From the NCBI GenBank assembly GCA_032622095.1, contig CP136061.1, positions 35,345,797 to 35,409,796 of the forward strand: 64,000 bases of DNA, read 5' to 3'. The DNA comes from Siphonodentalium dalli. Lineage: Eukaryota; Mollusca; Scaphopoda; Gadilida; Siphonodentaliidae. Positions 32,350 through 60,336 of this stretch are shown piece by piece (positions within the stretch are counted from its first letter, which is position 1; each line of letters begins with the position of its first letter). Under the pieces are notes generated by a model. The model had not been told where the DNA came from. It saw only the letters and a list, made by a program, of their open reading frames with translations, and did not search any database. The position numbers were made by a program, and so were the translations under genes.

Positions 32350-32541
32350 TTTGATTTGCTGCCTCTCAATCTCCCACTCACTCACTGATTCTTCAGTGAA
32401 GGATTCTGAATGAGCGGACCTCGGAGATGCATCAACGTTTTTTAACCTTGGTGATAGCTTGCCATCTTTTTGAAACCTTGGTGATAGCTTTCCATCTTCA
32501 TTCTTTTTCTCTATAGCAAGCTTCTGTGATATGATGTCTGA
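32350..32541 (-). CDS. 192-nt exon with internal DGKLSPR duplication
   Basis: The acceptor is CTTTCTAACAG and the donor ATCAAA/GTGAGT. It has 64 codons, phase 0-0. It contains DGKLSPRFQK followed directly by DGKLSPRLKN, a recent 30-bp in-frame duplication visible in the DNA. It ends ESVSEWEIERQQIK, with a Trp in a related acidic context. SPR sites suggest phosphorylation by proline-directed kinases (inference). Confidence 0.82.
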
Positions 32542-33599
32542 CTGTTAGAAAGTTTAAAAAAAGAATAAATGCTAAAATCACACTTCACCAAATCACCAAG
32601 TTGAATGTACGCCATACCTCTTTTTTTCAAATACCTAAATTTCAACAACAAAATATTTCTACACTATGTCCCCCTATTGAATGTACACCCTGTGACATCA
32701 GCAAAAAGAAATATTTTCTATGTAAAAAATTAAATTTCTACATTATATACCCACTTACAACACTCACCATTTATAATGCTAAAAGAAGGGTACCATTCAC
32801 AATGTTGTAAGATAAAAACAAATGTTAGTGAAACAGAATTTAACTAAAGGTGGGACTGTTCCAACATGATTTAATTGTGGCATTGAGTTAAATAAACAAT
32901 CAATCAATCAAGTAAAAATTCTCTCGCAGCGCAACTGGGCTACATTAAACATTATATTTGTTTCTCGAAAAAAATAATCATAAGTATTACAAGCTTGGAC
33001 AAAATTATGCATGCTGAGAACAAATTTCTTAGTCGAAAAGCAGGATAAATCCACTAAAAAAGTCAGATCGAACACATAATTGCAGGTGCACTGAAAAACG
33101 TAGGTATACAAGCTTGGACAATGTTGTATCCACGGACGGACTGAAGGTCAGACAGACGGACGGACAAGCAGATTCCTATATACCCACCAACATAGCTTTG
33201 TTAGCTTAATACTACATAATACTACAAGAATGAATCTATTTCAATTTGAAAAATAATAAAAGTTTGCCTCTCATGGTTAAGGGCACGAGAGGTAGCAGGT
33301 TAAGGGCATGAGAGGTAGCTGCCATTTGCTTCGACATTCCTGCAATAGTCACACTAACCTAACATCCACAATAAAGTTAAGCCTCCCCAACCTCTCGATA
33401 ACATTACAAAGAGAGATTGTCTTTAAATCTCTTTATAAATGTGATACTTGTCCTAATACATAGCATAGTTTTTGGAACATGAGAGGAATTTTGGCAAACC
33501 GAATAAGCAACAGATAAATTTTGGCAGTCAAAATTTTTAACTTTTTTAAATTTATAAAGAAACGTTTTCATGATTCAAAAACACTTCAAATTACAAATG

Positions 33600-33870
33600 T
33601 GAGGCATTATGTCACCTCGTGAGTACTTGTCAGGCATTATGTCACCTCGTGAGTACTTGTCGGGCATTATGTCACCTCGTGAGTACTTGTCAGACATTAT
33701 GTCACCTCGTGAGTACTTGTCGGGCATTATGTCACCTCATGAGTACTTGTCAGGCATTATGTCACCTCATGAGTACTTGTCAGGCATTGTCACCTCGTGA
33801 GTACTTGTCAGGCATTATGTCACCTCGTGAGTACTTGTCAGGCATTATGTCACCTCGTGAGTACTTGCGC
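33600..33870 (+). repeat. 30-bp tandem repeat, nine copies
   Basis: The unit is ATGTCACCTCGTGAGTACTT plus GTC(A/G)GGCATT. One copy lacks AT. Because 30 is divisible by three, the frame stays open and yields a repeated MSPREYLSGI; this is a by-product, not a gene. Confidence 0.93.
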
Positions 33871-34371
33871 TGAAAATTATTGGACAATTTAGAAAAGAGA
33901 TTTGGACTTATTAACATTTTATACTTTAGGAAACTTTTTTATGCATCAAGCTACAGCTATCCTTAAGTAATAACCACCTATAACACGGTGTCACCCCGAT
34001 AATAACACGGTCACATACCACAATAACCACCAACACCGCGTTAAGGTTACCACTTCAAAACTGTGATGCATCCAGGATATAAAGCAATTAAAGCCAAATT
34101 TCAAACAAAAATTACAACATTAAACATGTTACTAAATAATCGCGTGCATTTTTTTTTAATGCGACATGATTGGTCTTCATTGTAATCTTCCAGCTGAGTG
34201 CCCCACAATGCATCATGCTGTGAACTTTACACGACTTTATAGTTGCCGACATTGTTTCAGTTGTCAAATTATAAACCCCCCCCCTATCACCTGGTGTTAG
34301 GCCGCATTTATTGGCATTACACATGCCGCCATGAACATCAAGTTCAGTGGTTCTCTTAACATCTGTGTAAC

Positions 34372-34719
34372 TTAACCCTTTACCCAACAAACCGGCCAAA
34401 ACCGGCCAAATAAAGCTGCAACAGCCTAAATTATCTTGGGTCTGTCTCAATAAAACCATACAAATATGGATACATTGGAACCGGCTCCTTGACCACATTG
34501 TGATAGTCACAGTTATGCCATGTGCCAATGCATTCTCTTATATATGCGAGTCGACCATAGGTCTCCTCGCATATATAAGAGAATGCATTGGCCTAAATTT
34601 TATAATTTTTAATGTGTTAAGCCAATGCATTCTCTTATATATGCGAGGCGACCTATGGTCGACTCGCATATATAAGAGAATGCATTGGCACAGGGCCGTT
34701 CTGTTGTGTAAAGGGTTAA
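34372..34719. mobile_element. Family C TTAA MITE
   Basis: It runs from TTAACCCTTTACCCAACAAA to TTGTGTAAAGGGTTAA with two opposed palindromes; the AT-rich spacer is shortened. Confidence 0.85.
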
Positions 34720-34752
34720 CGAGATCCTGATGGATGTATTCTTTTTTTCAAC

Positions 34753-35300
34753 TTAACCCTTTCAGTGCCAAGTCCGATTTTTGTATCAACCCATATTTCC
34801 TTGATCATTTTTCAAATTTATTGATTATAATAATGTGATACATTGATGGAAAGAGCTCTAAGAATGTTTGCTACTACCAACAAGATCTGCACCCAAGAGC
34901 TCTAAGAGTACCACCGCCAAGATCTGCACCCAAGAGCTCTAAGAGCTACTACCACCAAGATCTGCACCCAAGAGCTCTAAGAGTACTACCACCAAGATCT
35001 GCACCCAACAGCTCTAAGAGTACTACCACCAAGATCTGCACCCAAGAGCTCTAAGAGCTACTACCACCAAGATCTGCACCCAAGAGCTCTAAGAGTACTA
35101 CCACCAAGATCTGCACCCAAGAGCTCTAAGAGCTACTACCACCAAGATCTGCACCCAAGAGCTCTAAGAGTACTACCAACAAGATCTGCACCCAACAGCT
35201 CTAAGAGCTCTTTCCATCAATGTATCACATTATTATAATCAATAAATTTGAAAAATGATCAAGGAAATATGGATTGATACAAAAATCGGACTTGGCACTG
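34753..35300. mobile_element. Family B TTAA MITE expanded by an internal minisatellite
   Basis: It runs from TTAACCCTTTCAGTGCCAAG to CTTGGCACTGAAAGGGTTAA. The centre, at AAGAGCTCTAAGAG, is occupied by nine ~36-bp units (AGATCTGCACCCAAGAGCTC, TAAGAGTACTACCACCA) at about 34870-35200, absent from the B copies at 10148 and 27738. Confidence 0.9.
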
Positions 35301-35799
35301 AAAGGGTTAAGGTGTGACGACCCGCTAATAGACTGCAGTATTTTAACCGCATGGTACCTTGGCTCCACCGCCGTGACCATCTCGTTACCGTTGTGGATAC
35401 TGTATACTACCCGTAATACTGTGGTCATTATTGGGGTATCACCCAGTTTTTCAAGTCAATTACTTTGAGGATAGCTGTAATCATTCTACACCTATAAGTA
35501 TATCTATCTATATAAATAGTCATTTAGTGAGACTTCCGTCGAAACAATGACGGATAGTAACATTCAAGAGCAAGAGATTAATAGCATAAAGCAACAATTT
35601 TTCATACAAGTGTAAACAAATAATAATACAATATCACAAAGCAGTGCGTTATACATGCAGTGAGGACATGCAATGTTATCTGAAAACAAGCAGTCGCAGA
35701 CAGCGGTATCCCCCGCCGAATTGTGCAGTTGGGGAAGTGCATTCTCAATGTTTGCGTTCTCAGTATGTGCTAAACAAGAGGTGGGATTTTGTCAAAATG

Positions 35800-36255
35800 C
35801 CTGGCTTGCGAACTCATTTTAGGTACTGACATTTGTGGAAATTAGCCATGTGACGTCGTCCATTTGCACACAAAAAATAAACAAAGTCCGCTTAAAATAT
35901 CCGGCCGGACCTGGTTTGCGAACTCGTTCTAGATACTGGTCAAGTGAACTCATATATCATATATCTTTGAAATCCGTTGAGATTTGTGGAAATGAGCCCT
36001 GTGACGTCGTCTATTTGCTATTTGGTAAATTTGACAAAAATAATAAACAAAGTCCAATAACTCCGGTAAAAATATCCGGTCGGACCTGGCTTGCGAACTC
36101 ATTCTAGGTAATGGTCAGGTGAACTCATATACCAAAAATCTTTAAAATCCGTTGACATTTGCTATGACTCTTACAAATTTGGGATGGACGGATGGACGGC
36201 TCGAAAGACGGACGGACGGAACCCATTCCTATATCCCCCGCAATTTTCAATTTGG
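35800..36255. repeat. Degenerate tandem repeat, three units, with GACGGACGGACGG tail
   Basis: TTGCGAACTC(A/G)TT(T/C)TAG(G/A)TA starts units at about 35804, 35913 and 36090. They share GTGACGTCGTC(C/T)ATTTGC and ATCTTT(G/A)AAATCCGTTGA. The end is a GGACGG run and CCCCCGC...GCGGGGG hairpin at about 36235-36260. Confidence 0.7.
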
Positions 36256-36423
36256 CGGGGGATAAATAGAATAAGTCTGATTTGAAATATTTTAGAGTTC
36301 CGCTCCTCTGATTTTGAACCAAGGAAAGTTATCTCACAACACTAATTGCCCAAATTACATGTATACCAATCTAAAGACCTGGTGAATCTTGGTAGATCTA
36401 ATCTACAGGGAGATTTTACTAAC

Positions 36424-36597
36424 ACTGGTGTCCCATCCCGATGTCTCTTCCTCTTCATCGTCAGCGGTTTTCTTCTCAAGTTTCGCCACCTCGGAAATCT
36501 TCTCTGATATTTTATCAATATCTTCATCAGCCTTCACATTGACATTCGCCTTGTAAACATCCTCAATGTCACTATCTTCATCATCGTTAACCTCAAT
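36424..36597 (-). CDS. 174-nt acidic exon ending SGWDTS
   Basis: The acceptor is ATATATAATCTTAG and the donor ACCAGT/GTTAGT. It has 58 codons, phase 0-0. It begins IEVNDDEDSDIEDVYKANVN, has a charged helical centre (KISEKISEVAKLEKK) and ends EETSGWDTS. Joined to the next exon it reads SGWDTSSDIIS, parallel to SDWDSTVMSDI in the large exon. Confidence 0.8.
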
Positions 36598-36966
36598 CTA
36601 AGATTATATATATTATCAATTCTTACCAGCATTTAGCTTTTATTTAGTGAAACAAATTTTCATCTATCAATCAGTGTCTCTTTCTGAAGATTGGCTGAAA
36701 ATATCACACCATCTTTTCAAATTTTTCTGATCAGAGCGAAAACTTACAACTGAAATTTTCTGAACAATATGCCTGTATTATAAAGACAGAAGAGGAATAC
36801 CAACCATTCCAAGCAAGTACTATCTATCCAGCCACATCCCTAAAATATAGCCCAGTAAAAACTGCCCAGTACAGCAAAGAACTTCTTTGCTAAAACTTCC
36901 AACTTCCACCACTTTTATAAAAATTCAGGAACAAGTCATAATCTCAAGTGTTGCAGTTAAAGGCAG

Positions 36967-37224
36967 TTAACACTTACCATACTACTACTGAAGAGTAGTT
37001 ACCCTTTACGAAATGTTCAGCTAATAAGTTCAACAAACGACCATCGTAAATTATTATCTGAACATTTCTCACCAGCGAATATGAATCTTCTGCAATTGTA
37101 TTGTTTTTTCATATGTATGTTGTCTGCTCATTTTTTCTGGACACCCCTCCAAATGAATGGTAGACTATTCTATTGTATACTTTTATAACTGAATGGGAGA
37201 ATCCATATAGAAAGAATGGGTTAA
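36967..37224. mobile_element. Family D TTAA MITE
   Basis: TTAACACTTACCATACTACT at the left, ATCCATATAGAAAGAATGGGTTAA at the right, with the AAATGTTCAGCTAATAAG / TTATTATCTGAACATTT inner arms. Confidence 0.75.
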
Positions 37225-37318
37225 TAGAGTTAGAGCACAGAACACACAGCGAAACAAATTGTCGAAATTGATCAAGCTGTTATACTTCCACACACCTTTC
37301 TCAGGTGCGGCGTCTCTT

Positions 37319-37760
37319 CATTTAACATTTTCATGATGGGAGCGAACTGGTGCAGCATTAAAGATCCTGTGCCAGTGCATTCTCTTATACATGCGAGTCT
37401 ACCATTGGGAGCCTCACATATATAAGAGAATGTACTGCCATACAAAGTCAAGGTAAATATTGTTAGGCCAATATATTCTCTTATATATGCGAGGCTCCCA
37501 TAGGGACCCTATCATATATAAGCGAATAAACTGGCTTGCAAGGTCAAGTTAAAATATTGTTAGGCAAATGCATTCTCTTATATATGCGAGACTCCCATAG
37601 TAAGTCTCGCATATATAACAGAATGCACTGTCTTACAAGGTTAAGGTAAATATTGTTCGGCCAATGCATTCTCTTATATACGTAAGGCTCCATATGGCAG
37701 ACTCGCAATATACAAGAGAATACATTGGCACAGGGTTTTCACAAAATTTCAGGAAGGGTT
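37319..37760. mobile_element. Family E TTAA MITE with four palindromes
   Basis: It starts TTAACATTTTCATGATGGGA and GGTGCAGCATTAAAGATCCT, and ends CAAAATTTCAGGAAGGGTTAA. Four ~62-bp palindromes separated by TACAAGGTCAAG / AATATTGTTAGGC spacers show multiplication of the module within one element. Confidence 0.78.
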
Positions 37761-38814
37761 AAATATTATGTCAATGAAACAGGCAAATCAGTCATGTATA
37801 TGAAACATGCTATGAGATACATACACTTCCATACATCCCTGCTGGGTGTGCACCCGGTTTCTGTGGAGTGGCTTGATCAGTGCTATCCCATTCACTCTCC
37901 TGCGAATTTTAATCAAATGAAAACATTTTCTTTAAATCCAATTCTAGCCATGTTTTAGAACTGACAAACTCACACTTTAACCCTTTCAGTGCCAGGGGCC
38001 GATCTTATCGGCCCTAATTTACGTTGATTTTTTTTTTGGGGTTGAAATTTTTTTGGGTATGCTTAAGCATGCTATAGCGAATTTAAAAACAAACTGGATA
38101 TAACCTTAGGGGCATGTTATAACTCAAAACTATCACCAAGTATTCATAGTAATAATTTTGATGCCCATGAAAAACGTAAGATTCCCTGGCATTACGTTAG
38201 ATTAAGCATACATCTTATAACTAAGGCTTGTTTGATCCCATTAATGTAATGTTTGTATTTTGTTTGGTTGTATATGAGATGCAGTGCGTTGGAGATGCGA
38301 ACGAAGATACAAAAGTGAAATGCACGCACGCAGAAAACTCATTACACACTATTCACGTTAAAATGATAATTTAGCACACACCATGGGCGACAAAATTTAC
38401 GAATCGGTGGGTTTATATTCAAATCCAAGTTATTTGGTTTATAACAGCTCCGATATGGACTCATACCAACATACGAATCTGGAAATGGTTGTTGGAATTC
38501 GATGAGCGTGAAAGAGCATTTTCGGTCCAAACAAAGGAATCGACTGTCATCTTGTTATTTGAACATATTAATGAAAATATCTTAGATGGACAATCTAGGG
38601 AAGAGTTTGATTTCAAATGTGCGTTTAAGAAATGGTCAGATGTAAAGACCCGTAGAATATTTAAGATTATTTATGTATGTTATTGTTATTTACAACTACT
38701 TTTGTTGCTCATGTTACATTGGTATTGTTTTATTTTGAAAATACAATTTATCTCAAAATATGTTCTAAAATAAGTGGCTAAAGGAATTTTTGGGCCAGCG
38801 TGAACACTGTTTCT

Positions 38815-39187
38815 AGCATCACCAAATAGTATGTCGGTCATATGTAATATAGTGACGCTACCCGCACAGTGGGCTAGCATCACCAAATAGTATGTCGGTC
38901 ATACATGTATGTAATATAGTGACGCTACCCGCACAGTGGGCTAGCATCACCAAATAGTATGTCAGTCATATGTAATATAGTGACGCTACCCGCACAGTGG
39001 GCTAGCATCACCAAATAGTATGTCAGTCATATGTAATATAGTGACGCTACCCGCACAGTGGGCTAGCATCACCAAATAGTATGTCGGTCATATGTAATAT
39101 AGTGACGCTACCCCCGCACAGTGGGCTAGCATCACCAAATAGTATGTCGGATATATGTAATATAGTGACGCTACCCTGCACAGTGGG
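38815..39187. repeat. 61-bp tandem array, about six copies, from the family F centre
   Basis: The unit contains AGCATCACCAAATAGTATGT, CGGTCATATG and GTGACGCTACCCGCACAGTG. The GTGACGCTA...TAGCATCAC hairpin with CCCGCACAGTGGG loop is the same as the centre of F elements, so the array appears seeded by an F fragment. Confidence 0.88.
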
Positions 39188-39250
39188 CTTAGAGATCATG
39201 GGATGAATCTCATGGAAGCTAAGACACAGATTATAGTGGCATAGGTTTTA
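39188..39250. repeat. 63-bp dispersed repeat, second copy at 45826-45888
   Basis: TTAGAGATCATGGGATGAAT through GATTATAGTGGCATAGGTTT is identical at both places, 6.6 kb apart and on either side of the fold-back transposon. A further 45-bp repeat (ATACATGGCAGGGAAAAAAC) occurs at about 39668 and 40312. Confidence 0.85.
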
Positions 39251-41916
39251 TCTATAAACTGGAACTACCTATATTTGAAGGATCGCGGGACCCCAATTTT
39301 TTCGTTGGGATCAACACCAACAATAGTCGTCACGTTTTGTAACTATTGAATAGAGTTATTGTTAAAAATTTACCAATAAATTGGAACTAGCTATATTGAT
39401 CAAGTTTATAACATCTTTTCATTTTTAAGGGGGTGCTATAGCATATATTAATGCATTCAACATTAAAATGTGAAATGCACGCACGCAGTCTTCTGCGTGC
39501 GTGCATTTCACATTACAGAACGTAATGCGTGTAATCACATTACAGTCTTCTGCGTGCGTGCATTTCACATTACAGAACGTAATGCCAGGGAATCTTACGT
39601 TTTTCATGGGCATCAAAATTATTACTATGAATACTTGGTGATAGTTTTGAGTTATATATGGTGTTGATCTTCTATATACATGGCAGGGAAAAAACCACCC
39701 CTCGGTGACATAGTCTATGTCACCCCTCGGTGACATAGACTATTGTTGGTGTTAATCCCAACGAAAAAATTGGGGTCCCGCGATCCTTCAAATATAGGTA
39801 GTTCCAGTTTATAGATAAAACTAAACCTACAAAATAAGTCTGTTAAAGAATATTTGAAAAAATTATTAAAATTGTAAAAAATAATAAAATTGTTAGGCTA
39901 TATGGGTTGATACAAAAATCGGACCTGGCACTGAAAGGGTTAAGCATCGACAGACAATGTTGTTCCCACATTAGGTTGAAGCATGTCATTTTAATGTTGA
40001 ATGCAATGGTAATTTTAATGTCGTCGATATCCAGGACAGAGGGTTCTAAGTGCGCATATACGAAGCACTTTGAACATGTAATATCAATTTCAAGGTGTAT
40101 ATCAATTTCATTTCCACTGGGCATCTTAGTGTTTGACATCACATGACATCCACTACTTTAATTTGCTATTGAAAATGGCTTAATGATAACTGACGCGAAA
40201 CGTCAAACTGAGATTGCAGGCTTATCATTGTGGGCTCCGCCTCAGGATTCAAATTTGACATCCACATTTAATCTACCTCTACCCCCAATGTTGTCCGAAA
40301 TAATTTGAAATCTTCTATATACATGGCAGGGAAAAAACCACCCCTTGGTGACACAGCTATTAGTGTAGTGACTTAGCGACAAAATTTTGTCATATTGGAA
40401 CGGACTGGCCAAAAGTGCCATTTTTTTATATTATGTCAAGTTAGGTGTGCTCTTTCAGAAAGTGAACTAGAAACAGGTTTCTGATCAATATTAACCCTTG
40501 TTTCCAGTATAAATCCAAGATGGCGGCCAAATTCAATCATTATTTCAACATGACGTTCCAACTGGTATACAATTTAAGGCACATGCATAATAAAGGCGTC
40601 ATTCCATCCGGCATTGTCATATTTTGAAGATATTAGCAATCCAGGCTGACCAAATTTGAAAATTATCACTTTTTGGACCAAAAGCATGAAATTTTGTCAT
40701 AAAATCATTCTCGTTTCAATTATTTCTGAATAATAAACAGACAATTTCTCAAAACTGTTTCAGTGCAGATGAAAGGTTAAGATCTTAAAAATTTCAGAAT
40801 AGTATACTGCAAACAAAATATACAATATCTAGGACAAATTCGTAACCATATTTTGGACATTTTGGATTATGTTAACCCTCACCCCAAAAATCATGAAATT
40901 TTGTTTTTGTGATAAACATCCGATAGAACATGGATGAGAATCTATAAAGGGCACTATTCGATCACATTTCTAAATACTGTAATTGCGATTACACACACAA
41001 TGACCAAAGTTGAAATTTACAACTTTTTCGACTAAAATATGCAATTTGGTAAGAAAATCCTCGTCATTTCAAATATTTTGGTCCAATAATTGGTCATTTA
41101 CACATAGGATATTTACGATAGTTCAAAATGTTTGGTCTTAAATGTTTTGGACATATATACTGAAAACAATGAATACATTTTCTGTGGTTAATATGTAACA
41201 ACGTTTCAGAAAATTTGGTTTATGTTACCCCTCACCCCAAAAATCACGAAAATGTGACTTGGTTGTAAAGATTCAATAAATCTTTGGTTAAATCTTATAA
41301 AGTGAGTTTGTCGATGACAATTAGTCATATATTGTTATGTAACAATCTCATTGACAGTATACTGTTTAAATTTACAATTGTATGCCTAATAACAGCTATA
41401 TTTTATGGTAAAATAACCATCATTTCAAATATTTTCAACCAATATATGGGCAATTTCTCAAACATTTCCCAAGATCGTATACCACATGCGGCCTTGAAAG
41501 TTTCGAAAATGACTGTCGAATACAACACATTTAAAGGTGTATACATGTCATGTCTTGGTGAAATAGAATAAAATTCTAAAAATCTATTATACCATAAATA
41601 ATTTGAAGGTTTTGACTTATATAATCTACAAATGTAGCATACAAGAGGGGGTATATATAGACATGTAGTTCAGATCACAACTGTAATTTGTCTATCAATA
41701 ATAAACATAACATAAAGATGGTCTATCTTTGTTTATACTCTGTTCTTAAATCCATGTTTGTTATGTTGTACTTGTATAACTATAATGTGCACAGTCTGAT
41801 CATACCAGCAGATATATAGCAACTCATAGATTGTCATGTTATAATCACCGGTGACCATGTTGATACATTGAACAAATATTTTAGGCATTCTTAATATCAC
41901 AATTACAACTGCATAA

Positions 41917-46887: not shown

Positions 46888-46971
46888 CTGGAAGGAGAGA
46901 TTGGATTGTTTCTGTAATGGCGACTTCTGCTTTAAATGGTCGCTCGGTGCCGGTGACTCCCAGTCACTTAT
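46888..46971 (-). CDS. 84-nt exon with SDWESP motif
   Basis: The acceptor is CTGACCTTTCCAG and the donor TTCCAG/GTAGGT. It has 28 codons, phase 0-0. It starts ISDWESPAPSDHLKQKSPLQ, another copy of the Trp-acidic motif. It lies about 270 bp downstream, in transcript direction, of the G-rich array, whose complement resembles repeated splice acceptors. Confidence 0.75.
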
Positions 46972-47242
46972 CTGGAAAGGTCAGAGTTCATCATTGTGAG
47001 AAACAAGAAAAAGTATACCACAAGAATTTAGTTTATCCAATTGTTTAACCACTGCAAAAAATTACAATAACCTCAGATGCAATAGAAATTGAACACCAAT
47101 TTATTGAAAAATATGTACATGTACTAATAACCCCGCACTAATCACTTTCAAATACAAAATTTTAAGCAATTTTTTCTTTGTGATTTTCATACAGAATTTA
47201 AATCAAAGTAAATTGAGAAAATTCATAATAGAAACTAGGAAA

Positions 47243-49637
47243 ATGGTGGGGGAGGTAACTAAATGGTGGGGGAGGTAACTAAATGGTAGGGGGAGGTAAC
47301 TAAATGGTGGGGGGAGGTAACTAATGGTGGGGGGAGGTAACTAAATGGTGGGGGAGGTAACTAAATGGTAGGGGGAGGTAACTAAATGGTGGGGGAGGTA
47401 ACTAATGGTGGGGGGAGGTAACTAATGGTGGGGGGAGGTAACTAATGGTGGGGGGAGGTAACTAAATGGTGGGGGGAGGTAACTAATGGTGGGGGGAGGT
47501 AACTAAATGGTGGGGGGAGGTAACTAATAGTGGGGGGAGGTAACTAAATGTGGGGGAGGTAACTAAATGGTGGGGGGAGGTAACTAAATGGTGGGGGGAG
47601 GTAACTAATGGTGGGGGAGGTAACTAATTATTAAATGGTGGGGGGAGGTAACTAATTATTAAATGGTGGGGGGAGGTAACTAAATGGTGGGGGGAGGTAA
47701 CTAAATGGTGGGGGAGGTAACTAAATGGTGGAGGGAGGTAACTAATGGTGGAGGGAGGTAACTAATGGTGGGGGGAGGTAACTAATGGTGGGGGGAGGTA
47801 ACTAATGGTGGGGGGAGGTAACTAATGGTGGGGGGAGGTAACTAATTATTAAATGGTGGGGGGAGGTAACTAATTATTAAATGGTGGGGGGAGGTAACTA
47901 ATTATTAAATGGTGGGGGGAGGTAACTAAATGGTGGGGGAGGTAACTAAATGGTGGGGGAGGTAACTAATGGTGGGGGGAGGTAACTAAATGGTGGGGGG
48001 AGGTAACTAAATGGTGGGGGAGGTAACTAAATGGTGGGGGGAGGTAACTAATGGTGGGGGGAGGTAACTAATGGTGGGGGGAGGTAACTAAATGGTGGGG
48101 GAGGTAACTAATGGTGGGGGGAGGTAACTAAATGGTGGGGGGAGGTAACTAAATGGTGGGGGGAGGTAACTAAATGGTGGGGGAGGTAACTAATGGTGGG
48201 GGAGGTAACTAATGGTGGGGGGAGGTAACTAAATGGTGGGGGAGGTAACTAAATGGTGGGGGGAGGTAACTAAATGGTGGGGAGAGGTAACTAAATGGTG
48301 GGGGAGGTAACTAAATGGTGGGGGGAGGTAACTAAATGGTGGGGGAGGTAACTAAATGGTGGGGGAGGTAACTAAATGGTGGGGGAGGTAACTAAATGAT
48401 GGGGGGAGGTAACTAAATGATGGGGGGGGGGTAACTAAATGGTGGGGGGAGGTAACTAAATGGTGGGGGGAGGTAACTAAATGGTGGGGGGAGGTAACTA
48501 ATGGTGGGGGGAGGTAACTAAATGGTGGGTGGAGGTAACTAAATGGTGGGGGAGGTAACTAAATGGTGGGGGAGGTAACAAAATAGTGGGGGAGGTAACT
48601 AATGGTGGGGGGAGGTAACTAAATGGTGGGGGGAGGTAACTAATGGTGGGGGGGGGGGGGTAACTAAATGGTGGGGGGAGGTAACTAAATGGTGGGGGGA
48701 GGTAACTAAATGGTGGGGGGAGGTAACAAAATGGTGGGGGGAGGTAACAAAATGGTGGGGGAGGTAACTAATGGTGGGGGGAGGTAACTAAATGGTGGGG
48801 GGAGGTAACAAAATGGTGGGGGGGAGGTAACTAAATGGTGGGGAGAGGTAACTAATGGTGGGGGAGGTAACTAATGGTGGGGGGAGGTAACCAAATCGTG
48901 GGGGGGGTAACTAATGGTGGGGGAGGTAACTAATGGTGGGGGGAGGTAACTAAATGGTGGGGGGAGGTAACTAAATGGTGGGGGGAGGTAACTAAATGGT
49001 GGGGGGTAACTAAATGGTGGGGGAGGTAACAAAATGGTGGGGGGAGGTCACTAAATGATGGGGGGAGGTAACTAATGGTGGGGGATGTAACTAAATGGTG
49101 GGGGAGGTAACTAAATGGTGGGGGGGGGTAACTAATGGTGGGGGGAGGTAACTAATGGTGGGGGGAGGTAACTAAATGGTGGGGGAGGTAACTAAATGTT
49201 GGGGGGAGGTAACTAATGGTGGGGGAGGTAACTAATGGTGGGGGGAGGTAACTAAATGGTGGGGGGAGGTAACTAAATGGTGGGGGAGGTAACTAATGGT
49301 GGGGGGAGGTAACTAATGGTGGGGGAGGTAACTAAATGGTGGGGGGAGGTAACTAAATGGTGGGGGGAGGTAACTAAATGGTGGGGGGAGGTAACTAATG
49401 GTGGGGGAGGTAACTAAATGGTGGGGGAGGTAACTAAATGGTGGGGGGAGGTAACTAATGGTGGGGGAGGTAACTAATGGTGGGGGAGGTAACTAAATGA
49501 TGGGGGAGGTAACTAAATGGTGGGGGGAGGTAACTAATGGTGGGGGGAGTTAACTAATGGTGGGGGGAGGTAACTAATGGTGGGGGGAGGTAACTAAATG
49601 GTGGGGGGAGGTAACTAAATGGTGGGGGGAGGTAACT
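47243..49637. repeat. G-rich 18-21-bp minisatellite, roughly 120 copies
   Basis: The unit is (AA)ATGGTGGGGGGAGGTAACT with 4-7 G (up to 13 in one unit) and a present or absent AA; a TAATTATT insertion recurs in about five units. The plus strand has many G-runs able to form G-quadruplexes. The minus strand, which is the transcript strand of the host gene, reads as a C/T tract followed by CACCATTTAG or CACCATTAG in every unit. It lies in the intron between the 51956-52114 and 46888-46971 exons. Confidence 0.95.
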
Positions 49638-49899
49638 AATTTTATTATATGCTTGCCTATAAAATAGCGGAAAATTAGCGAAACGTATATCGTCGAATGT
49701 ATCTCCTATAGAAGCCACAGTGAAATACGACATTGTTATTTCACTGAAGATTTTGTTATTTTACTGTAGCTTTTTTAGAATTTGGGTCTACAAGTTGTAT
49801 CTTTCCAAGTATTGTTAAATTTGTTGTACTATCTATTAAAAGTGAAAATACTGGATAATTTAGGAACTTTAAGCATCAATAAGACACATATAATAAAAT

Positions 49900-51035: not shown

Positions 51036-51955
51036 TGAAGGGATCGAAATTATTGCCTCAAAACTCATCTCATTTTCTTTGTAGGTTGTAACAATATGAC
51101 TGTTCCTTTAGTTTTTTTTTCCTGATACACTAGAATTAAAAAGCATTGCTTGGAGGTGTGAAAACAGATGATATATTTTGATATCTTTGATCATATTGAT
51201 CCCCAGAAAGTGAAAAAAAACGCGAGATTACTTGGTTTAATATCACACTCACAATCTCACTACATGGGTTAATTTCAAACGTATATACAAATGTTTCAAA
51301 TTCTTATGAGTTAGTTCAAAAGCAAATTTGTGTGCATAAAATAAAACATAAAAACATTGAGTGTCTCAATATCAAAAAGCTGCTCATCAAAGTGGATAAA
51401 AATGAGTTAAAATGCACCCATGATACAAAAGAGTTTAAATGCACCCATGGTATTCATGTGTCTGACTTTGTGAGTACATTATATTCTATATTACACAATT
51501 AAGATACCCAAACTAAAACGGTCTAAATTTCTCTAAGTCAAGAAATATTTCAGTGAAAACTTATTTTTTTCTGTCGTTCATATACATGTTGCACATCAGC
51601 ATATTGATTACACAATGAAGGTACCCATAATGTGTGACAGACACATGAACAGACAGAAGGATGGATGGATGTAGGTAATTTCTATCATCCCCTGTGACAT
51701 ATTCATGAATGCCTGCTAAGAGTAATGAAAATTACATAGAGCGGAAACAGTAATTTTTGACATCTCAAAAAAGGTACTATATTATTTTGACCATTCAGAT
51801 TATGGTGTTATCAAAGCAAATTCCAAATGCAGAAAATTAAATCCACAACAGTTTCTGTCAGGGCTTATTGAAGCTTTGCACCACCCTAAAAATGTTAATA
51901 ATTATACAAAAAAGAAAACAAACAACATCACATCTACAGAGAAAGTTATTTGTAC
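51036..51955. other. Intron, nothing recognised except a short GGATGGATG run
   Basis: AT-rich intron downstream of the 51956-52114 exon in transcript direction. A degenerate TACACAATGAAGGTACCC block at 51610 resembles the unit at 23750. Confidence 0.5.
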
Positions 51956-52114
51956 AGAGGACTGATCCTCGGCGGCTTGTCTCAGCTCAGCTTGTATCGA
52001 GATGACGCTCCTGTCATCATCGAGTTCTATCTCGCTCATTTCATCCGCCTCATCCTGCCACCCCATATCTTGAATAATGGAATAATCTGCATGTCCGTCT
52101 AGAGACTCATCTGT
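51956..52114 (-). CDS. 159-nt acidic exon with MGWQDEADE motif
   Basis: The acceptor is TTACTTATTGAAG (unusual AAG ending but a good tract) and the donor TCCTCT/GTACAA (weak at +3 to +6). It has 53 codons, phase 0-0. It contains the Trp motif MGWQDEADEMSEIELDDD and then a helical, Ala/Gln/Glu-rich stretch ISIQAELRQAAEDQSS. It joins the next exon to make QSSISDWESP. Confidence 0.75.
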
Positions 52115-52407
52115 CTTCAATAAGTAACGGCACAGGAGTTAAAGCGAATCTCACATATAAAATACCTCCACAAAATCAGTTCTAATTAAAAATTGATCAT
52201 GTATGACATAAGTTATCTCCAACTACTTTGCAGGTACATGGAAATGTGATACACGGAAGTCAATTTTGAACCCCGAGTGCCGAGGCGGAAGAGATTGGTT
52301 CAAAATGAGATATCCAGGCATCAAATTTCCATGTAACCATTTTGTCGGAGATTTATCACCACAATGATAAGATCAGAAATTTGAATTCAAGTGTGTGATG
52401 TCGTTTC

Positions 52408-54543
52408 CTTTCATGATGGTGGGCTGCACTGGTGCAGCATTAACGATCGGGTGCCAGTGCATTATCTATTATATATTTTGGAAGATATGTCTGTGTATGT
52501 GTGTGTGTGTCTGTGTGTTCGCGATGAACTTGAAAACGGCCGACCCGATTTCGATGAAACTTCGTATGTGAGGGTACTATTGGTCGGGTAGTGGCATAGG
52601 CATATTAATTTTCAGATCCGAGGTCAACTTTTCACGTGCCGAGGTCAAATCTGTTTTTACGCTGTGTTAAGGGACTTTCATTTGAGTTCGGTGCTTACAA
52701 ATCGATTCGAAACAGCGCGAATAATAAAATGCCAGTCATAATAACGACACTGTGAGAATCTGTCGTGTTTCCTCTTTCCAACGATATATAATGCGTATGT
52801 ATCCGTTTTAGTTATCTGCCTCAATTATCAAGAAGAAGTGGTACTATCTTCCATCAGGATAAAAACAATGCGTAACCTCTATGACGTCGTTAGAGGTCAT
52901 AACGTTAGATCACGTTAACACTTAACCGGCCGATGCATTTGACTGCTTCAGACGTCTTGGCGATATCTCGGGCACCGATGGTAATTTATCTTTACGTTGA
53001 AACTTGATAATTAATGAACGTGTGTATATGAGGCGCGTTTATATACTTGAGTGGAAATCAAATCGGGTTAAACTGGCGGATTTTTACGGACGAAATTTGA
53101 TGCATAGGGTATCTCGGTATCCGCTGGGCCGATTTCCCGGTATCCGCTGGGCCGATTTCCACTATTTTTGGGGTGTTGGTGTTTGACCCCACCTGACCTT
53201 GACCTTCAAAATGGTCAATTCAAGGTCAAAGCCCAGACGAAGTCGGGTCACCTTCTAGTCTATTATATATTTTGGAAGATCTGTCTGTGTGTCTGTCTGT
53301 GTGTTCGCGATGAACTCGAAAACGGCAGAGCCGATTTCGATGAAACTTGGTATGTGGGGGTATTTTCGGCTGGGGGGTGGCATGGGCCTATTTATTTGTC
53401 CGTGCGACGTGACCTTGACCTTGAAATAGGGTCATTTCAAGGTCAAACGCCCGAATATCACGGGATTTCGATGAAACTTGGTATGTGGGGATACTTTCGT
53501 CCACTGAGTGTTTTGGACAGGTCAAATCGTGACCGCGGCTTGACCTTCAAAATGATCAATTCAAGGTCAAATCGGGTAAAACCGGATGGATTTCGACGGG
53601 CACGTTTGTCAGGTACTTTTGTCCGGGCAGTGTTTTGGACTGGTCAAATCGTGACCCCTCTTGACCTTGACCTTCAAAATGGACAATTCAAGGTCAAAGC
53701 CCGGACGAAGTCGGGTCACCTTCTAGTCTATTATATATTTTGGAAGATCTGTCTGTGTGTGTGTGTGTTCGCGATGAACTCGAAAACGGCCGAGCCGATT
53801 TCGATGAAACTTGGTATGTGGGGGTATTTTCGGCCGAGGGGTGGCATGGGCCTATTAATTTGTCCGTGCGACATGACCTTGACATCGGGTAATTTCAGGG
53901 TCAAACGCCCGAATATCACGGGATTTCGATGAAACTTGGTTTGTGGTGGTACTTTCGGTCGGGGAGTCTCATAAGCATATTTATTTGCCCGTGCGACGTG
54001 ACCTTGACCTTGAAATCTGGTCAATTCAAGGTCAAATCGCCAATTTTGATGAGATTTCGACGAAATTTTATACATATGGTTACTTTTGTCCACTGAGTGT
54101 TTTGGACGGGTCAAATCGTGACCCCGAACTGACCTTGACCTTCAAAATGATCAATTCAAGGTCAAATCGGGTAAAAAACGGATGGATTTCGACGGGTACT
54201 TTTGTCCGGGCAGTGTTTTGGACGGGCCAAATCGTGACCCCACCTGACCTTCACCTTCAAAATGGACAATTCAAGGTCAAAGCCCGGACGAAGTCGGGTC
54301 ACCTTCTAGTCTTATATATAAAGAGTCTGCCATAGGGAGCCTCGCATATATAAGAGAATGCTCTGGCTTACAAATCAAGGTAAATATTGTTATGTCAATG
54401 TATTCTCTTATATATGTAAGGCTCCCTATGGGAGATTTGCATAATTAAGAGAATGCATTGGCACATGGTCTTCACAAAATTTCAGGCACTGCCACAAGAT
54501 CTTTAATGCTGCACCAGAGCAGCTCCCGATATGAAAAGGTTAA
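52408..54543. mobile_element. Family E MITE carrying a Helitron insertion
   Basis: The left part is CTTTCATGATGGTGGGCTGC, ACTGGTGCAGCATTA up to GTGCCAGTGCATTA; the right part resumes TCTTATATATAAAGAGTCTG and continues with two palindromes to TTTAATGCTGCACCAGAGCA. Without the insert the E sequence is continuous. Confidence 0.8.
52465..54309 (+). mobile_element. Three head-to-tail non-autonomous Helitron units
   Basis: Units are 52465-53258, 53259-53726 and 53727-54309. Each starts TCTATTATATATTTTGGAAG and ends CCTTCTAG with the CCCGGACGAAGTCGGG-type hairpin just before. Flanking bases are A and T. Unit 1 matches the long first unit at 19309; units 2 and 3 are shorter internal-deletion forms. 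The interior is full of short AAGGTCA/TGACCTT inverted motifs. No Rep/helicase gene. Confidence 0.88.
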
Positions 54544-54744
54544 TACTGGACATCTAGAACCCTGAATACATGATTAAATTAATTCCAGTTAAGTATAATC
54601 AGAATAAAATTGAACAAAGCAAATTACTATTACTAAGATATAGTGAAACAGAAGACTAAAACAAATACATTTAATTACATGCAGTTAAGGAAGAATAACA
54701 AATAGATAGACAAGAATAACTAATAGGATATTAACACCAAACTG

Positions 54745-55834
54745 TTACCCCTTTCATGACAGCAGCTTTCTGAAATTTGTCAAAAACCCTGTGCCAATGC
54801 ATTCTATGATATATGCGAGTCTCCCATAGGGGGTCTCGCATATATACAAATGTGCGGTCACAGTATTCAAATCGCTAAATCATACGGTTCCTGTGTACAT
54901 TTCTGACATGTTTGTTCTGAAAAGCGGGGGTGAGACTCGATCATGTACCAGTGGCAAAGATATCCGCAGAGCGACCAGGAAGCCTAACATCAACTACGGA
55001 ATTAGGTGCTTCCAAGAGACTTCCATCAACAACTGGAATAGACTTCCAATGGACATCCGGAATTGTGCTACTTTCCCCAAATTCAAGTCAAAACTTAAGA
55101 CTCACTTGTTCGAGATATGCTTCAATCTGCCAAAAAAAAGGTGTTCTTCGATAGCTGTTTACCAGAGTCTGTTATGTGCGTGCGAGTCTAGACCGTTTAA
55201 CCCATATATTAACTTTTACTTTCACCATATAATTTTAGTTGTGATTCAATCGTATATCTTCGTGTATTTTAAATGGTCTAGCTGTTATTATTGCCTTACT
55301 GCGGTTGATTATTAGGTTAAGTTGGTATTATCTAGTTAGGTTGTTTATATATAATTTTATCCATTCGAGCATTATTATTTTAGGATGTGTGCCATGTTTG
55401 TATTGTAAGCGCATTGAAACTAATTTATTGTATAATGCGTTCTAAATGTATCTATAATAATAATAATAATAATAATAATATAAGAGAATGCATTTGCCTA
55501 ACAATATGTAACTTGACATTGTAAGCCAGGCATTCTCTTATATATGCCAGGCTCCCTATGGGAGACTCACATATATAAGAGAATGCACTGGCTTACAATG
55601 TCAAGTTAAATATTGTTAGGCAAATGCATTCTCTTATATATGCGAGTCTCCCATAGGGTGTCTCGCATATATAAGAGAATGCATTTGCCTAACAATATTT
55701 ACCTTGACCTTGTAATACAGTGCATTCTCTTATATATGTCAGGCTCCCTATGGGAGAATCGCATATATAAGAGAATGCACTTGCACAAGATCTTTAATGC
55801 TGCACCAGCAGAGCTCCCATCATGAAAGGGTTAA
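54745..55834. mobile_element. Family E TTAA MITE carrying a LINE insertion
   Basis: It runs from TTACCCCTTTCATGACAGCA to CATCATGAAAGGGTTAA. Left and right halves of one palindrome (TCTCGCATATATA / ATATAAGAGAATGC) are separated by the LINE fragment. Two more palindromes follow. Confidence 0.8.
54850..55478 (+). mobile_element. 5'-truncated non-LTR retrotransposon (CR1/L2-like), 3' end with (AAT)n tail
   Basis: The frame at 54893-55315 encodes the typical LINE reverse-transcriptase C-terminus: NYGIRCFQETSINNWNRLPM, DIRNCATFPKFKSKLKTHLF. It then has a 3'UTR and an AATAATAATAAT tail. The probable 5-bp duplication is ATATA (left CATATATA/C, right AATATA/AG). The frame closes at TAG before the UTR. 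Typical of abortive target-primed insertion. The RT catalytic domain is absent. Confidence 0.82.
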
Positions 55835-56398
55835 AACTGGAGATGAGGAACCCTGAATATATTATTAAATTAATTCCAGTTCAGTATCAACAGAATAAAA
55901 ATTGCACATAGCATATTACTAATACTAAGAAATGGTGAAAGATTAAAACAAACACATATAATTACAAGCAGTGAAGGAAAAATAGGAGCAATCAGATAGG
56001 CAAGAATAACTGAAATCGTTAATAAGGACTGTGTTATACATCACATCTTCTAAGATAAATAAACCTCCTACCATTAAATTAAACTAAGCTATGGTTATGT
56101 ACCACTAAAGGTTTGCATATATCACTTGTTCTATGAAATACAAAGATTCTATCAAATAAAAAGCCACAAAGATGTACCATAGCAGGGACCAGCCTAGAGG
56201 TTTCAAATGAGAAGAAATCACTCCTCCCTAGACCAGTACACAGGGACCAGCCTAGAGGGTTCACAATAAAAAGAAATCACTCCTGGAAGAACAGAAGTTT
56301 AATTTCTCCCTTGACCAAAAGTTGCGGAAGTGAAGCATTTTCGGGAGATGATATCTCCCATGTTTACCTCTAGGCTGGTCCCTCACCATAAAACTTAC

Positions 56399-56467
56399 CA
56401 GTTTTCCTTCTTGAGACTGATCAGGAATAACTGGATCCTCTAAATCACTGTCCCACGACTCAGACTC
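56399..56467 (-). CDS. 69-nt exon with ESWDSD motif
   Basis: The acceptor is AATTTGATACAG and the donor AAACTG/GTAAGT. It has 23 codons, phase 0-0. The start is ESESWDSDLEDPVIPDQSQE, with one tryptophan in the same Ser-Trp-Asp-Ser context as the large exon. Confidence 0.78.
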
Positions 56468-56798
56468 CTGTATCAAATTCTAATTATGTAAACTTCATTT
56501 TGACTATGTCCGGCAAATTTTTAATTCTTTTGAGTTAACACCATGACAAAACATAATCAGTGCCAATGTGTACATATGGTTATAAGATGTGCATGCTAAT
56601 AGTAAAAACAATATCAAATATTCATGCATAAAACCTCATTTAAAAGTTGCAAAAACCAAACAAATGAAAAAATTTAACAGGAAAAAAACTTGGATAAAGT
56701 TATATTCCACAAATAACAATGTCAGACCATTTGCATCCATAGTCAGAGTATGGACGACATTAAAATAAATATCCAATTTTAAATCTATTAAATTGTCA

Positions 56799-57198
56799 TT
56801 AACCCTTTACCCAACAAACCGGCCAAAACCAGCCAAATAAAGCTTCAACAGCCTAAAATATCTTCGGTCTGTCTCAATAGAACCATACACATATGGATAT
56901 CATTGGAACCGGCTCCTTGACCACATTGTGATAGTTACAGTTATGCCATGTGCCAATGCATTCTCTTATATATGCGAGTCGACCATAGGTCGCCTCGCAT
57001 ATATAAGAGAATGCATTGGCCTAAAAAAAATCTTTTTTTAACACTTTTTACCATTTTTTCTTACATTCTTTAACAATTTTATAATTTTTAATGTGTTAAG
57101 CCAATGCATTCTCTTATATATGCGAGGCGACCTATGGTCGACTCGCATATATAAGAGAATGCATTGGCACAGGGCCCTTCTGTTGGGTAAAGGGTTAA
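56799..57198. mobile_element. Family C TTAA MITE (400 bp)
   Basis: It runs from TTAACCCTTTACCCAACAAA to TGTTGGGTAAAGGGTTAA with two opposed palindromes. Very similar to the 22290 copy, which suggests recent activity of C. Confidence 0.87.
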
Positions 57199-57461
57199 AT
57201 TGACAAAATGAGAGAGAGCTCAAAATGTTATCTGTATTCTGTCCATTTCAATCATGTGTTGCTAGTTTCCTCCATACAATATGTATACAAGTTGGTGTTG
57301 GTTATGTGACGTTAGTCACTTCACATAACCAACAAGTCTCCACAATTTGAGTTCCATAGCATGGATGAATTTTTTAATATAAATATAGTCATTGAAGGTT
57401 GAAACAATATCTTTCTCATTTTATGAATAATGATGACAAGCAATATATCCATGGTACTCAC

Positions 57462-57509
57462 CTCATCAGAATCGGGTGCTTTCTTGGTGGGTTCCTGTGT
57501 CTGAGGAGG
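57462..57509 (-). CDS. 48-nt exon, PPQTQEPTKKAPDSDE
   Basis: The acceptor is TTTTCATTTTTAG and the donor GATGAG/GTGAGT. It has sixteen codons in phase 0-0 and a Pro/acidic composition like its neighbours. Like several exons here it is a symmetrical, frame-neutral unit. Confidence 0.68.
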
Positions 57510-57654
57510 CTAAAAATGAAAAGCAAATATTAATGACGAGTAGGTACATGTTTTGGGGTGATATGACATATAACAGACAACTAGAAGCAAAACAATATAA
57601 ATTCTATAATATTCCATTTCCATGTTGTATGGTGCAAGAATTTTCAAACTACAG

Positions 57655-58115
57655 ATCTGACAGTCCCAATGGGACCTAGGATACCACCCATAGTGCATAT
57701 GATATAAACTAGAGGTGTGACTTTCCCAATGGACCCAACGATACCACCCTTAGTGCACATGATATAAACTGGAGGTGTGACAGCCCCAATGGGACCTAGG
57801 ATGCCACCCTTAGTGCACATGATATAACTTGAGGTGTGACCGTCCCAATGGGACCTAGGATACCACCCTTAGTGCACATGATATAACTTGAGGTGTGACC
57901 GTCCCAATGGTACTAAGGATACCACCCTTAGTGCACATGATATAACTTGAGGTGTGACCGTCCCAATGGTACTAAGGATACCACCCGTAGTGCACATGAT
58001 ATAACTAGAGGTGTGACCGTCAAATTAGGACTAAGGACACCCACCCAGTGCACAACATATAACTTGAGGTGTGACTGTCCGAACGGGACTGAGGATACCA
58101 CACGTAGTGCCAGAG
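57655..58115. repeat. ~60-bp tandem array, seven to eight copies
   Basis: The unit contains AGGTGTGACCGTCCCAATGG, GACCTAGGATACCACCCTTA and GTGCACATGATATAACTTG. The outer copies are more diverged. It starts ~145 bp upstream, in transcript direction, of the 57462-57509 exon. Confidence 0.9.
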
Positions 58116-58202
58116 ATCAATGTGCAGTGATGTGTCTGTAAATGTTAAGGACGTGTAATGAACACGGAATTTAGTTCTCATTGTATTAGACTACAGTAAG
58201 TG

Positions 58203-58468
58203 TTAACTATTCCATGACTGGAGCTTCCTGAAATTTTGCGAAAACCCTGTGCCAATGCATTCTCTTATATATGCGAGTTTCCCATAATAGGGAACCTCAC
58301 ATATATAAGAGAATGCATTAGCATAACAATATTTACCTTGAACTTGTAAGCCAGTGCATTCCCTTATATATGCGAGGCTCCCTATGGGAGACTCACATAT
58401 ATTTGAGAATGCATTGGCACAGGGTTTTTAGTGCTGCACCAGCACAACTCCAGTCATGAACGGGTTAA
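58203..58468. mobile_element. Family E TTAA MITE (266 bp), complete
   Basis: It runs from TTAACTATTCCATGACTGGA to CCAGTCATGAACGGGTTAA with two palindromes. The closest copy to a full E unit, with TTAA at both edges. Its right end is only 46 bp from the donor side of the 58514-58546 exon. Confidence 0.85.
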
Positions 58469-58513
58469 AATGCAGAAGTTATTTTATTAGGAGAATGAAG
58501 AGAAATGTCTTAC

Positions 58514-58546
58514 CTGGTCAATATTGATGTCTGCTTCTTGACTCGG
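58514..58546 (-). CDS. 33-nt exon, PSQEADINIDQ
   Basis: The acceptor is TTGTTTTTTAAG and the donor GACCAG/GTAAGA. It has eleven codons, phase 0 on both sides, and encodes PSQEADINIDQ. A strong donor, a clear pyrimidine tract and matching phase support it despite its length. It can be skipped without a frame change, so it may be a cassette exon. Confidence 0.65.
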
Positions 58547-59695
58547 CTTAAAAAACAAGTAGAAAGAAGCAAGTAGTCATATGTTAAAACACAATGCATT
58601 GCAGCATTCAACAGGGATGAAAGAAGCAAGTATTCATATGCTAAAACATAACAGCATTCAACAGGGATCACTCTGCTAACACAGAGAGCTTAGAGAAAAT
58701 TTTATATCTTGCTGAGATTTTAATGATCAAGAATGAAAAATTTGCAACCAATTCTTGTCCAATTTACTTTACCATACTTCGCAAATATAAGCCATAATTT
58801 TGTTCTGTTTTAGTTCCATATCAAACTTGGTGCCTTAAGTTAGTATTAGATAGACAGAGAAGAGGACCTATAAATTTAATCATATAAACATATCTGGATC
58901 TGGTAATGGTTGGGAATGATGATAAATAATTTATGTCTACCCGGGTTTATTTTTTTGAGGAAATTTTAGATATTTAATATTTTAGGTAAAACATGTACAT
59001 AATCCAAAGCAATTGGATAAAAACAACTAAAGTTATCATCTGGACACCAAAATAAGTCAAACAATAATTAAATGAAAGTGTCAATGATACGTAGCTAAAC
59101 TTGGGTAGGTGTTAATTTTAGGCTGAGCAGTCAATAGAATGATAAAAGAGGAAGGCAATTCAAGATGTTTAAGTAAAGGGATTCTATGGTGTAGATGAAA
59201 TTATTTTCATTTCAAACTTTTATACAATAACTGAATGATATGGCCGAAATCATGTCTAGTAGGGGTGCCGAAGGATTTAGTCATACAAAGAGTAAAATAC
59301 AAGATGTTGATACATGTTTTCCAATGAAATTTTCGAATATTTTTATGGCTGCAATCTAGTGGTCACTCCAAAGATCCATATGATGTTTGGTGGTGATTAG
59401 ATGATGGATGTAGTCTGTAGGGTGTGCCAAAGGATTTAGTCATGAAAAGAGTTAATTCTAAGATAACTAATCTTAAAAAATTTGAATCAAAAAGGAACAA
59501 AACTGCATCAGAAATATTTCAAACAGATCTAAATTCGAATCTCACTATTTTAAAATGTAGATCAAGTACCAAATTCCATAAATAATTATTCAAGTTTATA
59601 TCATCTGAATAATAGATGTTTCGGAGGAACAACTTAAATGACACTCATAAATAAACCGTAACTGTGTTTTCGCAACATTTATGATGATTGCTAAC
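58547..59695. other. Intron, nothing recognised
   Basis: Intron between the 641-nt and the 33-nt exons. A weak repeated phrase (GGTGCCGAAGGATTTAGTCA / GTGCCAAAGGATTTAGTCAT, about 59268 and 59425) indicates a drifted ~160-bp tandem repeat. No element ends seen. Confidence 0.5.
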
Positions 59696-60336
59696 CTTTT
59701 TAAGGATTCCTGGCCTGGGTGTGATGGCATCTGAGACGGCCACTGTCGTATCGTGACTATCGTCCCAATCACTCTCTACCTGACCTCTCGGTGTCTTCCC
59801 GTCTCCATCATCATCCGTCGCCTTAGTAATAGCCTTCTCATAATCCGGCCCTATAACAACATGATTCTGACCACCAGGTGGCTCGTCAATCACCGTTGAA
59901 TCCCAGTCGCTGTCATCCCTCATTAGCGGGGATTTAGCCTCGGGCTCATCTCTGGTCCGTCCCATCTGTGACAAAGCATTAAAGTCATAGCCACCCTCCT
60001 CATTTCTGCGTGGTGATCTCGGTGGTGGCTGTGGTGGTGGTGGCTTTATGTCTGACATAACGGTTGAGTCCCAGTCAGATTCCTCCTTGATACTTGGTGA
60101 TCTCGGTGGTGGTGGCGGTGGTGGTCGCTTTATGTCAGACATACTCGGTTGATGTTTTGCTGTTTCTTGATCCTTTTCCTGTGGCAGAGGTTTTATATCT
60201 GACATGACAGTCGAATCCCAGTCACTTGCTGCAAAACTGTCAATGAGGTTGTCACTTGGTTTTGGTTTAATGACAACTTCAGATGACTCACTGTCGCTGA
60301 GTTCATCATCACTGAGACCGAGGTCGGCCATGATTG
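59696..60336 (-). CDS. Large acidic exon with four SDWD motifs and poly-Pro
   Basis: This is the largest and clearest coding exon (641 nt, 213 whole codons). The acceptor is CACATTTTCAG and the donor AAAAAG/GTTAGC. It begins IMADLGLSDDELSDSESSEV. Three copies of SDWDST (two followed by VMSDIK, one by VIDE) and a fourth diverged SDWDDSHD are spaced by proline-rich linkers. Two of these linkers carry PPPPPPPRSPS- and PPPQPPPRSPRR-like runs, candidate SH3/profilin ligands and proline-directed kinase sites. Strong acidity and low complexity indicate disorder. Phase-1 entry with CA after the acceptor means the Met is probably internal. A translation start here with a 5'UTR exon upstream cannot be excluded. 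Confidence 0.88.

Follow-up and report, generated by a model that had tools for sequence, protein, structure and literature searches.

What does a protein gain from tryptophans set repeatedly in one short acidic motif, and which partner would read them? The question is raised by a gene on the minus strand of a 64,000-nucleotide stretch of DNA from the scaphopod Siphonodentalium dalli (assembly GCA_032622095.1, contig CP136061.1, positions 35,345,797 to 35,409,796; hereafter the window, numbered from its first letter). The motif is real, constrained and repeated. It has a described near relative, the tryptophan-acidic (W-acidic) motif bound by kinesin light chain (KLC), and is unusual in its copy number and in the Ser found two residues before the Trp (position -2).

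Ten tryptophans in an acidic context

Nine motifs had been quoted in an earlier note on this DNA, made from the letters and their open reading frames, and all nine are present in open frames on the minus strand. They had been taken to hold the only tryptophans of the protein and to fall in six exons. A tenth Trp, overlooked at that time, lies in the ESEWDST of exon 6 (37899-37825), and the Trp-bearing exons of our model number seven: four tryptophans are in exon 1, one each in exons 3, 4, 5, 6, 7 and 8, and none in exon 2 or exons 9 to 13. Exon 6 was first detected by a composition scan in which Trp had zero weight and acids and Ser were weighted. It reads ESEWDSTDQATPQKP, begins exactly at an AG, and is a 75-base, phase 0 exon between exons 5 and 7. 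The model as a whole, spliced by eye and with an exon-chain search, runs from 60331 to 1152 and comprises 13 exons and 782 codons, with no stops and with phases that agree across all junctions:

Exon 1, 59696..60331, minus strand: from ATG, 212 codons; Trp 38, 87 and 143 (SDWDST three times) and Trp 189 (SDWDDS)
Exon 2, 57462..57509, minus strand: 16 codons, Trp-free; the chain search favoured a start 3 codons later
Exon 3, 56399..56467, minus strand: 23 codons, ESWDSD (Trp 233)
Exon 4, 51956..52114, minus strand: 53 codons, MGWQDE (Trp 270); weak donor, end maybe at 51932
Exon 5, 46888..46971, minus strand: 28 codons, SDWESP (Trp 308)
Exon 6, 37825..37899, minus strand: 25 codons, ESEWDST (Trp 336); weak donor
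Exon 7, 36424..36597, minus strand: 58 codons, SGWDTS (Trp 412) at the exon end; weak donor
Exon 8, 32350..32541, minus strand: 64 codons, SEWEIE (Trp 471); starts with SDII
Exon 9, 28020..28097, minus strand: 26 codons, Trp-free
Exon 10, 25939..26123, minus strand: acidic, Trp-free, end phase 2
Exon 11, 6187..6516, minus strand: Trp-free, phase 2 to 2
Exon 12, 4217..4401, minus strand: Trp-free, phase 2 to 1; hand-added
Exon 13, 1152..1284, minus strand: coiled-coil-like by eye, Trp-free, end phase 2; hand-added

The motif-bearing peptides of the modelled protein include SDWDSTVMSDIK, SDWDDSHDTTV, SEWDST and SDWESP, and proline runs separate the copies in exon 1. Asp or Glu is found at +1 of Trp in nine of the ten motifs, at -1 in seven, and on both sides in seven. 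Ser stands at -2 in eight, Ser or Thr at +2 or +3 also in eight, and the three residues on either side of each Trp include neither Lys nor Arg (random-position mean 6.55). The deviant motif is MGWQDE of exon 4, with Met at -2 and an acid on neither flank. A CK2-type S-x-x-D/E is present at the motif Ser in 8/10, and this site pattern agrees with the earlier suggestion that the Ser is possibly phosphorylated by CK2. By the charge-hydropathy criterion the composition of exons 1 to 8 is of the disordered type, which is weak evidence, since the same criterion also calls the coiled-coil-like exon 13 disordered.

Enrichment over chance

These features were compared with random sets of ten non-Trp positions from the modelled protein, drawn 100,000 times. 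Acids on both flanks seven times and Asp or Glu at +1 nine times were each reached in 0/100,000 draws (means 0.58 and 2.06, respectively), while Ser at -2 eight times had P = 1e-5. Under a stricter null, with the SDWDST copies counted once (8 Trp) and draws taken from exons 1 to 8 only, P was 8e-5 for both flanks, 2e-4 for Asp or Glu at +1 and 4e-5 for Ser at -2; because the features were picked after the motifs had been seen, all these P values are descriptive.

Patterns devised after the motifs were seen were also searched in six frames of the whole window and in 60 first-order Markov sequences. S[DEG]W[DE] had 8 matches, 8/8 of them in modelled exons (null mean 1.1, maximum 4), and [SE][DESG]W[DE][DST] likewise had 8, all exonic (null mean 0.6, maximum 2). 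The looser [DE]W[DE] occurred 14 times, with 7/14 exonic, and was not significant alone (null mean 8.6, maximum 15). A candidate for a further motif, DWDSS at 14043, was taken as chance because, by eye, its frame has no AG from the stop upstream of it to the Trp.

A second element, S-[DE]-[IALHV], is present 4-14 residues downstream of the Trp in six of the ten motifs. Its enrichment (random mean 2.07, P 0.007, and P 0.02 after removal of one copy) is only suggestive, because the element was noticed in the data before being tested. In one case, SGWDTS-SDII, motif and element are brought together by the junction of exons 7 and 8, which has a weak donor.

Constraint among the exon 1 copies

Among its copies in exon 1, the motif is under protein-level constraint, since the copies differ at synonymous sites and yet keep their residues while their flanks diverge. 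Between copies a and b of SDWDSTVMSDIKP, 8/13 codons but no residues differ (proportion of synonymous differences, pS, 0.91 versus a nonsynonymous proportion, pN, of 0.06), one Ser codon having switched from AGT to TCT. When the same nine changes were simulated neutrally for this pair, all residues were kept in 0/100,000 runs. The seven codons of SDWDSTV also specify identical residues throughout in the a-c and b-c pairs (P about 1e-3 and 2e-5, respectively), and the next position is Met versus Ile in these comparisons. Overall, pS among the exon 1 copies is 0.91-1.0 and pN 0-0.12, against a pN of 0.44-0.73 in neighbouring stretches. Over the 12 codons upstream, 11 residues differ between a and b (pN 0.73) and 9 between b and c (pN 0.44); downstream, a and b differ in 9 residues over 10 codons; these flanks were compared ungapped and are too divergent to prove common descent of the copies by themselves. 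The test covers three copies of one exon, which are not independent, with motif borders set by sight.

The exon 1 copies show the pattern that the earlier note proposed to seek in orthologues, with the motif retained and the linker drifting. Its description of a repeated short linear motif is supported by this constraint and by the disorder-type composition of the surrounding stretch.

How the motif multiplied

Multiplication exon by exon, over separate and frame-neutral exons, had been proposed as the origin of the array. The exons are indeed frame-neutral with the chosen splice sites, the lengths of exons 1 (from ATG) to 9 all being divisible by three. The proposed route fared less well: the demonstrable copies are all within exon 1, and comparison between exons gives it no support. 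The seven Trp-bearing exons, each taken with 250-base flanks, form 21 pairs, and by best local match none of these beat all of its 100 mononucleotide shuffles. Pairs reached by three shuffles or fewer were exons 4/1 (1), 3/6 (3) and 6/1 (3), with no match on the motifs; the best match of exons 5/1, which falls on motif codons, was reached by 8/100. With synonymous sites near saturation, any trace of an old exon duplication would have been erased, and separate gain of short motifs is about as likely as exon duplication.

Other repeats occur in the same exons. An element consisting of MSDIK, a proline run and RSP is present twice in exon 1 (60011-60152; 88% DNA identity over 58 bases), one of the copies not being directly preceded by a Trp motif. 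In exon 8, about ten codons are duplicated in tandem (32438-32498, DGKLSPRF/DGKLSPRL; 91% DNA identity over 32 bases).

Candidate receptors for a proposed docking array

The earlier note knew of no described name for the motif, and here the literature supplies one. A tryptophan-acidic (WD/WE) motif bound by KLC has been published (PMC5450233, PMC6214655, PMC2829069) and corresponds to the ELM class LIG_KLC1_WD_1 (PMC5753338, PMC8728146). Its Trp typically has flanking Asp or Glu, often with Leu or Met at -2 (PMC5450233), and a consensus has been given as L-E/D-W-D/E-D/E-S/N (PMC2829069). The W-acidic peptide TNLEWDDSAI of SKIP has been solved in complex with KLC2, and Leu -2 takes about the place of the Tyr in the related Y-acidic motif (PMC6214655). 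Adaptors named in this literature are SKIP, calsyntenin-1, nesprin-2, dynein intermediate chain 1 (DIC1) and LMTK2. The kinesin-1 adaptors covered by these papers have one or two W-acidic motifs each, with micromolar affinity; in calsyntenin, loss of one motif is reported to reduce binding to 30% and loss of both to 3%. CK1/CK2-type phosphorylation is reported to raise calsyntenin binding (review PMC9203973), in underlying work that, by its title, concerns the acidic region and not position -2.

Judged from sequence, we tentatively rank KLC first among the single receptors that can be named for a multivalent docking array. In the long protein that the gene would encode, the 479 readable residues at the N-terminal end form, by composition, a disordered acidic tether carrying ten W-acidic motifs, followed further along by a coiled-coil-like part. 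We infer that the tether is disordered in the cell and that its motifs dock: each Trp, together with its acidic neighbours, would insert weakly into a groove that is basic and accepts Trp, and avidity would arise from the number of copies. Among described receptors the TPR groove of KLC would fit best, in which case the protein would recruit kinesin-1 and open it. Phosphorylation of Ser -2, a CK2-type site in 8/10, could tune docking; it may equally be an off-switch, given that this position is occupied by a hydrophobic Leu in the solved structure.

Several points weigh against KLC as the receptor. Leu or Met is found at -2 in 0/7 of the doubly flanked motifs, Met occurring only in exon 4. Eight motifs match 2/5 of the consensus positions besides Trp, the motif of exon 3 matches just 1/5, and a hydrophobic residue is at +5 in only 3/10. 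Since Leu -2 occupies the Tyr place, a Ser there, and more so a phospho-Ser, might weaken the fit to KLC. In the published systems, one of two candidate WD/WE sites of LMTK2 is reported not to have mattered, and for DIC1 and SKIP alike the second peptide is reported not to have bound by itself. A published example with Ser at -2 was rated as partly conforming, in a protein whose motifs were not required (PMC2829069); two later papers still count that protein among W-acidic adaptors or users (PMC6214655, PMC5450233). Further, a constrained motif can serve a different receptor. Because the array departs from the Leu/Met found at -2, we do not assign it to the KLC W-acidic class and say only that it may work in a like manner.

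Almost as likely is a docking array that serves a different, perhaps undescribed acceptor; were the protein ANKRD26-like, this could for example be a centriolar partner or one at the base of the cilium. Ser -2 (8/10) and the downstream S-[DE]-[IALHV] (6/10) are foreign to the KLC consensus, constraint spans the whole of SDWDSTVMSDIKP in copies a and b, and ANKRD26 is reported to be a distal-appendage protein (PMC11984956). Yet no receptor of this kind can be named, the C-terminus alone is reported to be sufficient for localization in the ANKRD26 family (PMC7198521), and the best conserved part of the motif is its Trp-acid core, for which a described reader exists already. It is rather unlikely, though conceivable, that the ten-copy array is a motor- or centriole-docking 'velcro' which, by its Ser -2 and downstream S-D-I, constitutes a class distinct from the KLC motif and possibly phospho-switched.

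We consider it improbable that the motifs have no function as such and arose as side effects of tandem slippage and acidic low-complexity sequence. The repeated proline-rich pieces in exon 1, the small tandem duplication in exon 8 and the lack of clear window-wide enrichment of [DE]W[DE] (14 versus a null mean of 8.6 and a maximum of 15) fit such an origin, but random positions of the same protein fail to reproduce the pattern, and the SDWDST copies are near-saturated synonymously with no residue change (0/100,000 neutral simulations for a and b). Trp pockets of the Argonaute-hook or CCR4-NOT type, which would take up single tryptophans along a disordered chain, are a very unlikely match: the well-spaced single Trp, the disorder-type composition and Gly at -1 in 2/10 are compatible with them, whereas the Argonaute hook consists of GW/WG dipeptides, and here WG is absent (Gly +1 in 0/10), Gly -1 is confined to those two motifs and the flanks are strongly acidic. 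LC3/GABARAP-interacting (LIR) or delta-COP Trp motifs, which share acidic and Ser residues upstream of Trp, can practically be dismissed, as the L/I/V at +3 from the aromatic that LIR requires and the second aromatic within about six residues downstream that marks delta-COP motifs are each found in 0/10.

Extent and support of the gene model

The exon model was built from hand-read splice contexts and the exon-chain search, and exons were recognised in part by acidic composition. The search is partly circular, because the hand-read exons 1 to 10 then served as the training set for its codon usage; since splice sites were also partly chosen by phase, the phase fit is supportive and not independent evidence. 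Under the first thresholds exons 4, 6, 7 and 8 were lost, and looser thresholds were used afterwards. The looser result also included an 11-codon exon at 58546-58514 (PSQEADINIDQ), and a lower-penalty chain additionally took 21501-21439; both are without Trp and were excluded from the model. Exon 2 was shorter by three codons and exon 4 longer by eight in the looser result, and the hand boundaries were retained. Exons 12 and 13 were added by hand, both being absent from the exon-chain result (exon 13 is listed among its candidates).

Further exons are conceivable at several places. The 19.4 kb that separate exon 10 from exon 11 could conceal some, and exon 1 may be internal, with further 5' exons possible, because an acceptor-like CAG lies just 5 bases 5' of its ATG. 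The 3.7 kb 5' of exon 1 were inspected by eye only, in three minus-strand frames. The coding sequence extends past the low end of the window, and "all Trp" means all that are readable within it.

Database and literature searches

Pfam was queried with exons 1 to 11 joined, with exons 9 to 13 joined, and with exons 12 and 13 each alone. No ankyrin, CCDC144 or other domain scored above cut-off on the modelled exons 1 to 13, the relevant ends of which may lie outside the window, and RSD-2, NolB and CC_CDK5RAP2 matched below the curated cut-offs only. The ANKRD26 assignment remains a lead. Human ANKRD26 presumably has Trp in an acidic context as well, which we likewise treat as a lead and do not use as support. 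Among the matches listed, titles and abstract openings contained no link between ANKRD26 and kinesin and nothing on a Trp motif of ANKRD26, and a full-text literature search with the literal motif strings returned just one unrelated T-cell receptor paper. In PDB sequence searches a 21-residue peptide had no match and the modelled protein had one chance, proline-rich match to synapsin (E 5.3). An IMG/VR scan with exon 1 found no relative.

Surrounding sequence

The introns contain several repeats. Between exons 4 and 5 there is a 20/41-base minisatellite of about 116 (20-base) copies (47241-49639), G-rich on the plus strand, and between exons 8 and 9 a 41-base satellite of about 39 copies with 96% match (28409-30011). 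The latter intron also has a 141-codon open frame on the plus strand (30380-30802), which had no Pfam match at E 0.01 when ten open segments of the window were scanned. In the intron between exons 10 and 11, near-identical open segments occur two or three times on both strands (15049-18112), perhaps belonging to a mobile element. No tRNA and, at the gathering score, no Rfam family was found in the window.

Comparison with known systems

If kinesin is the partner, a natural chain of ten motifs would make avidity-driven motor recruitment and phospho-tuning directly testable, and with so many motif variants in one protein the tolerance of the groove at -2 could be defined. An ANKRD26-like identity would hint that a protein of the cilium base is linked to a motor, and if the receptor is other than KLC, the array defines a new docking class.

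ANKRD26/CCDC144 proteins have a long disordered part before a coiled coil. The modelled protein resembles this architecture in having a long part of disorder-type composition that precedes a coiled-coil-like part, and differs from it in that there is no ankyrin or CCDC144 match within the modelled part, the relevant ends of which may lie outside the window. The likeness to the KLC W-acidic motif lies in the Trp-acid core and the acidic segments, with 7/10 motifs matching [DE]W[DE] and 9/10 matching W[DE]. SDWDDS, the fourth motif of exon 1, differs from L/M-E/D-W-D-D-S only at -2 and, Trp aside, agrees with the consensus at 4/5 positions. At +5, where the TNLEWDDSAI of SKIP has Ile, all three SDWDST copies carry Met or Ile. 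The array differs from the KLC motif in having Ser at -2 in 8/10 instead of Leu or Met, in having Ser or Thr at +2 or +3 in 8/10 and, in some motifs, a downstream S-D-I element, and it differs from the W-acidic adaptors of the cited papers in having ten motifs where those have one or two.

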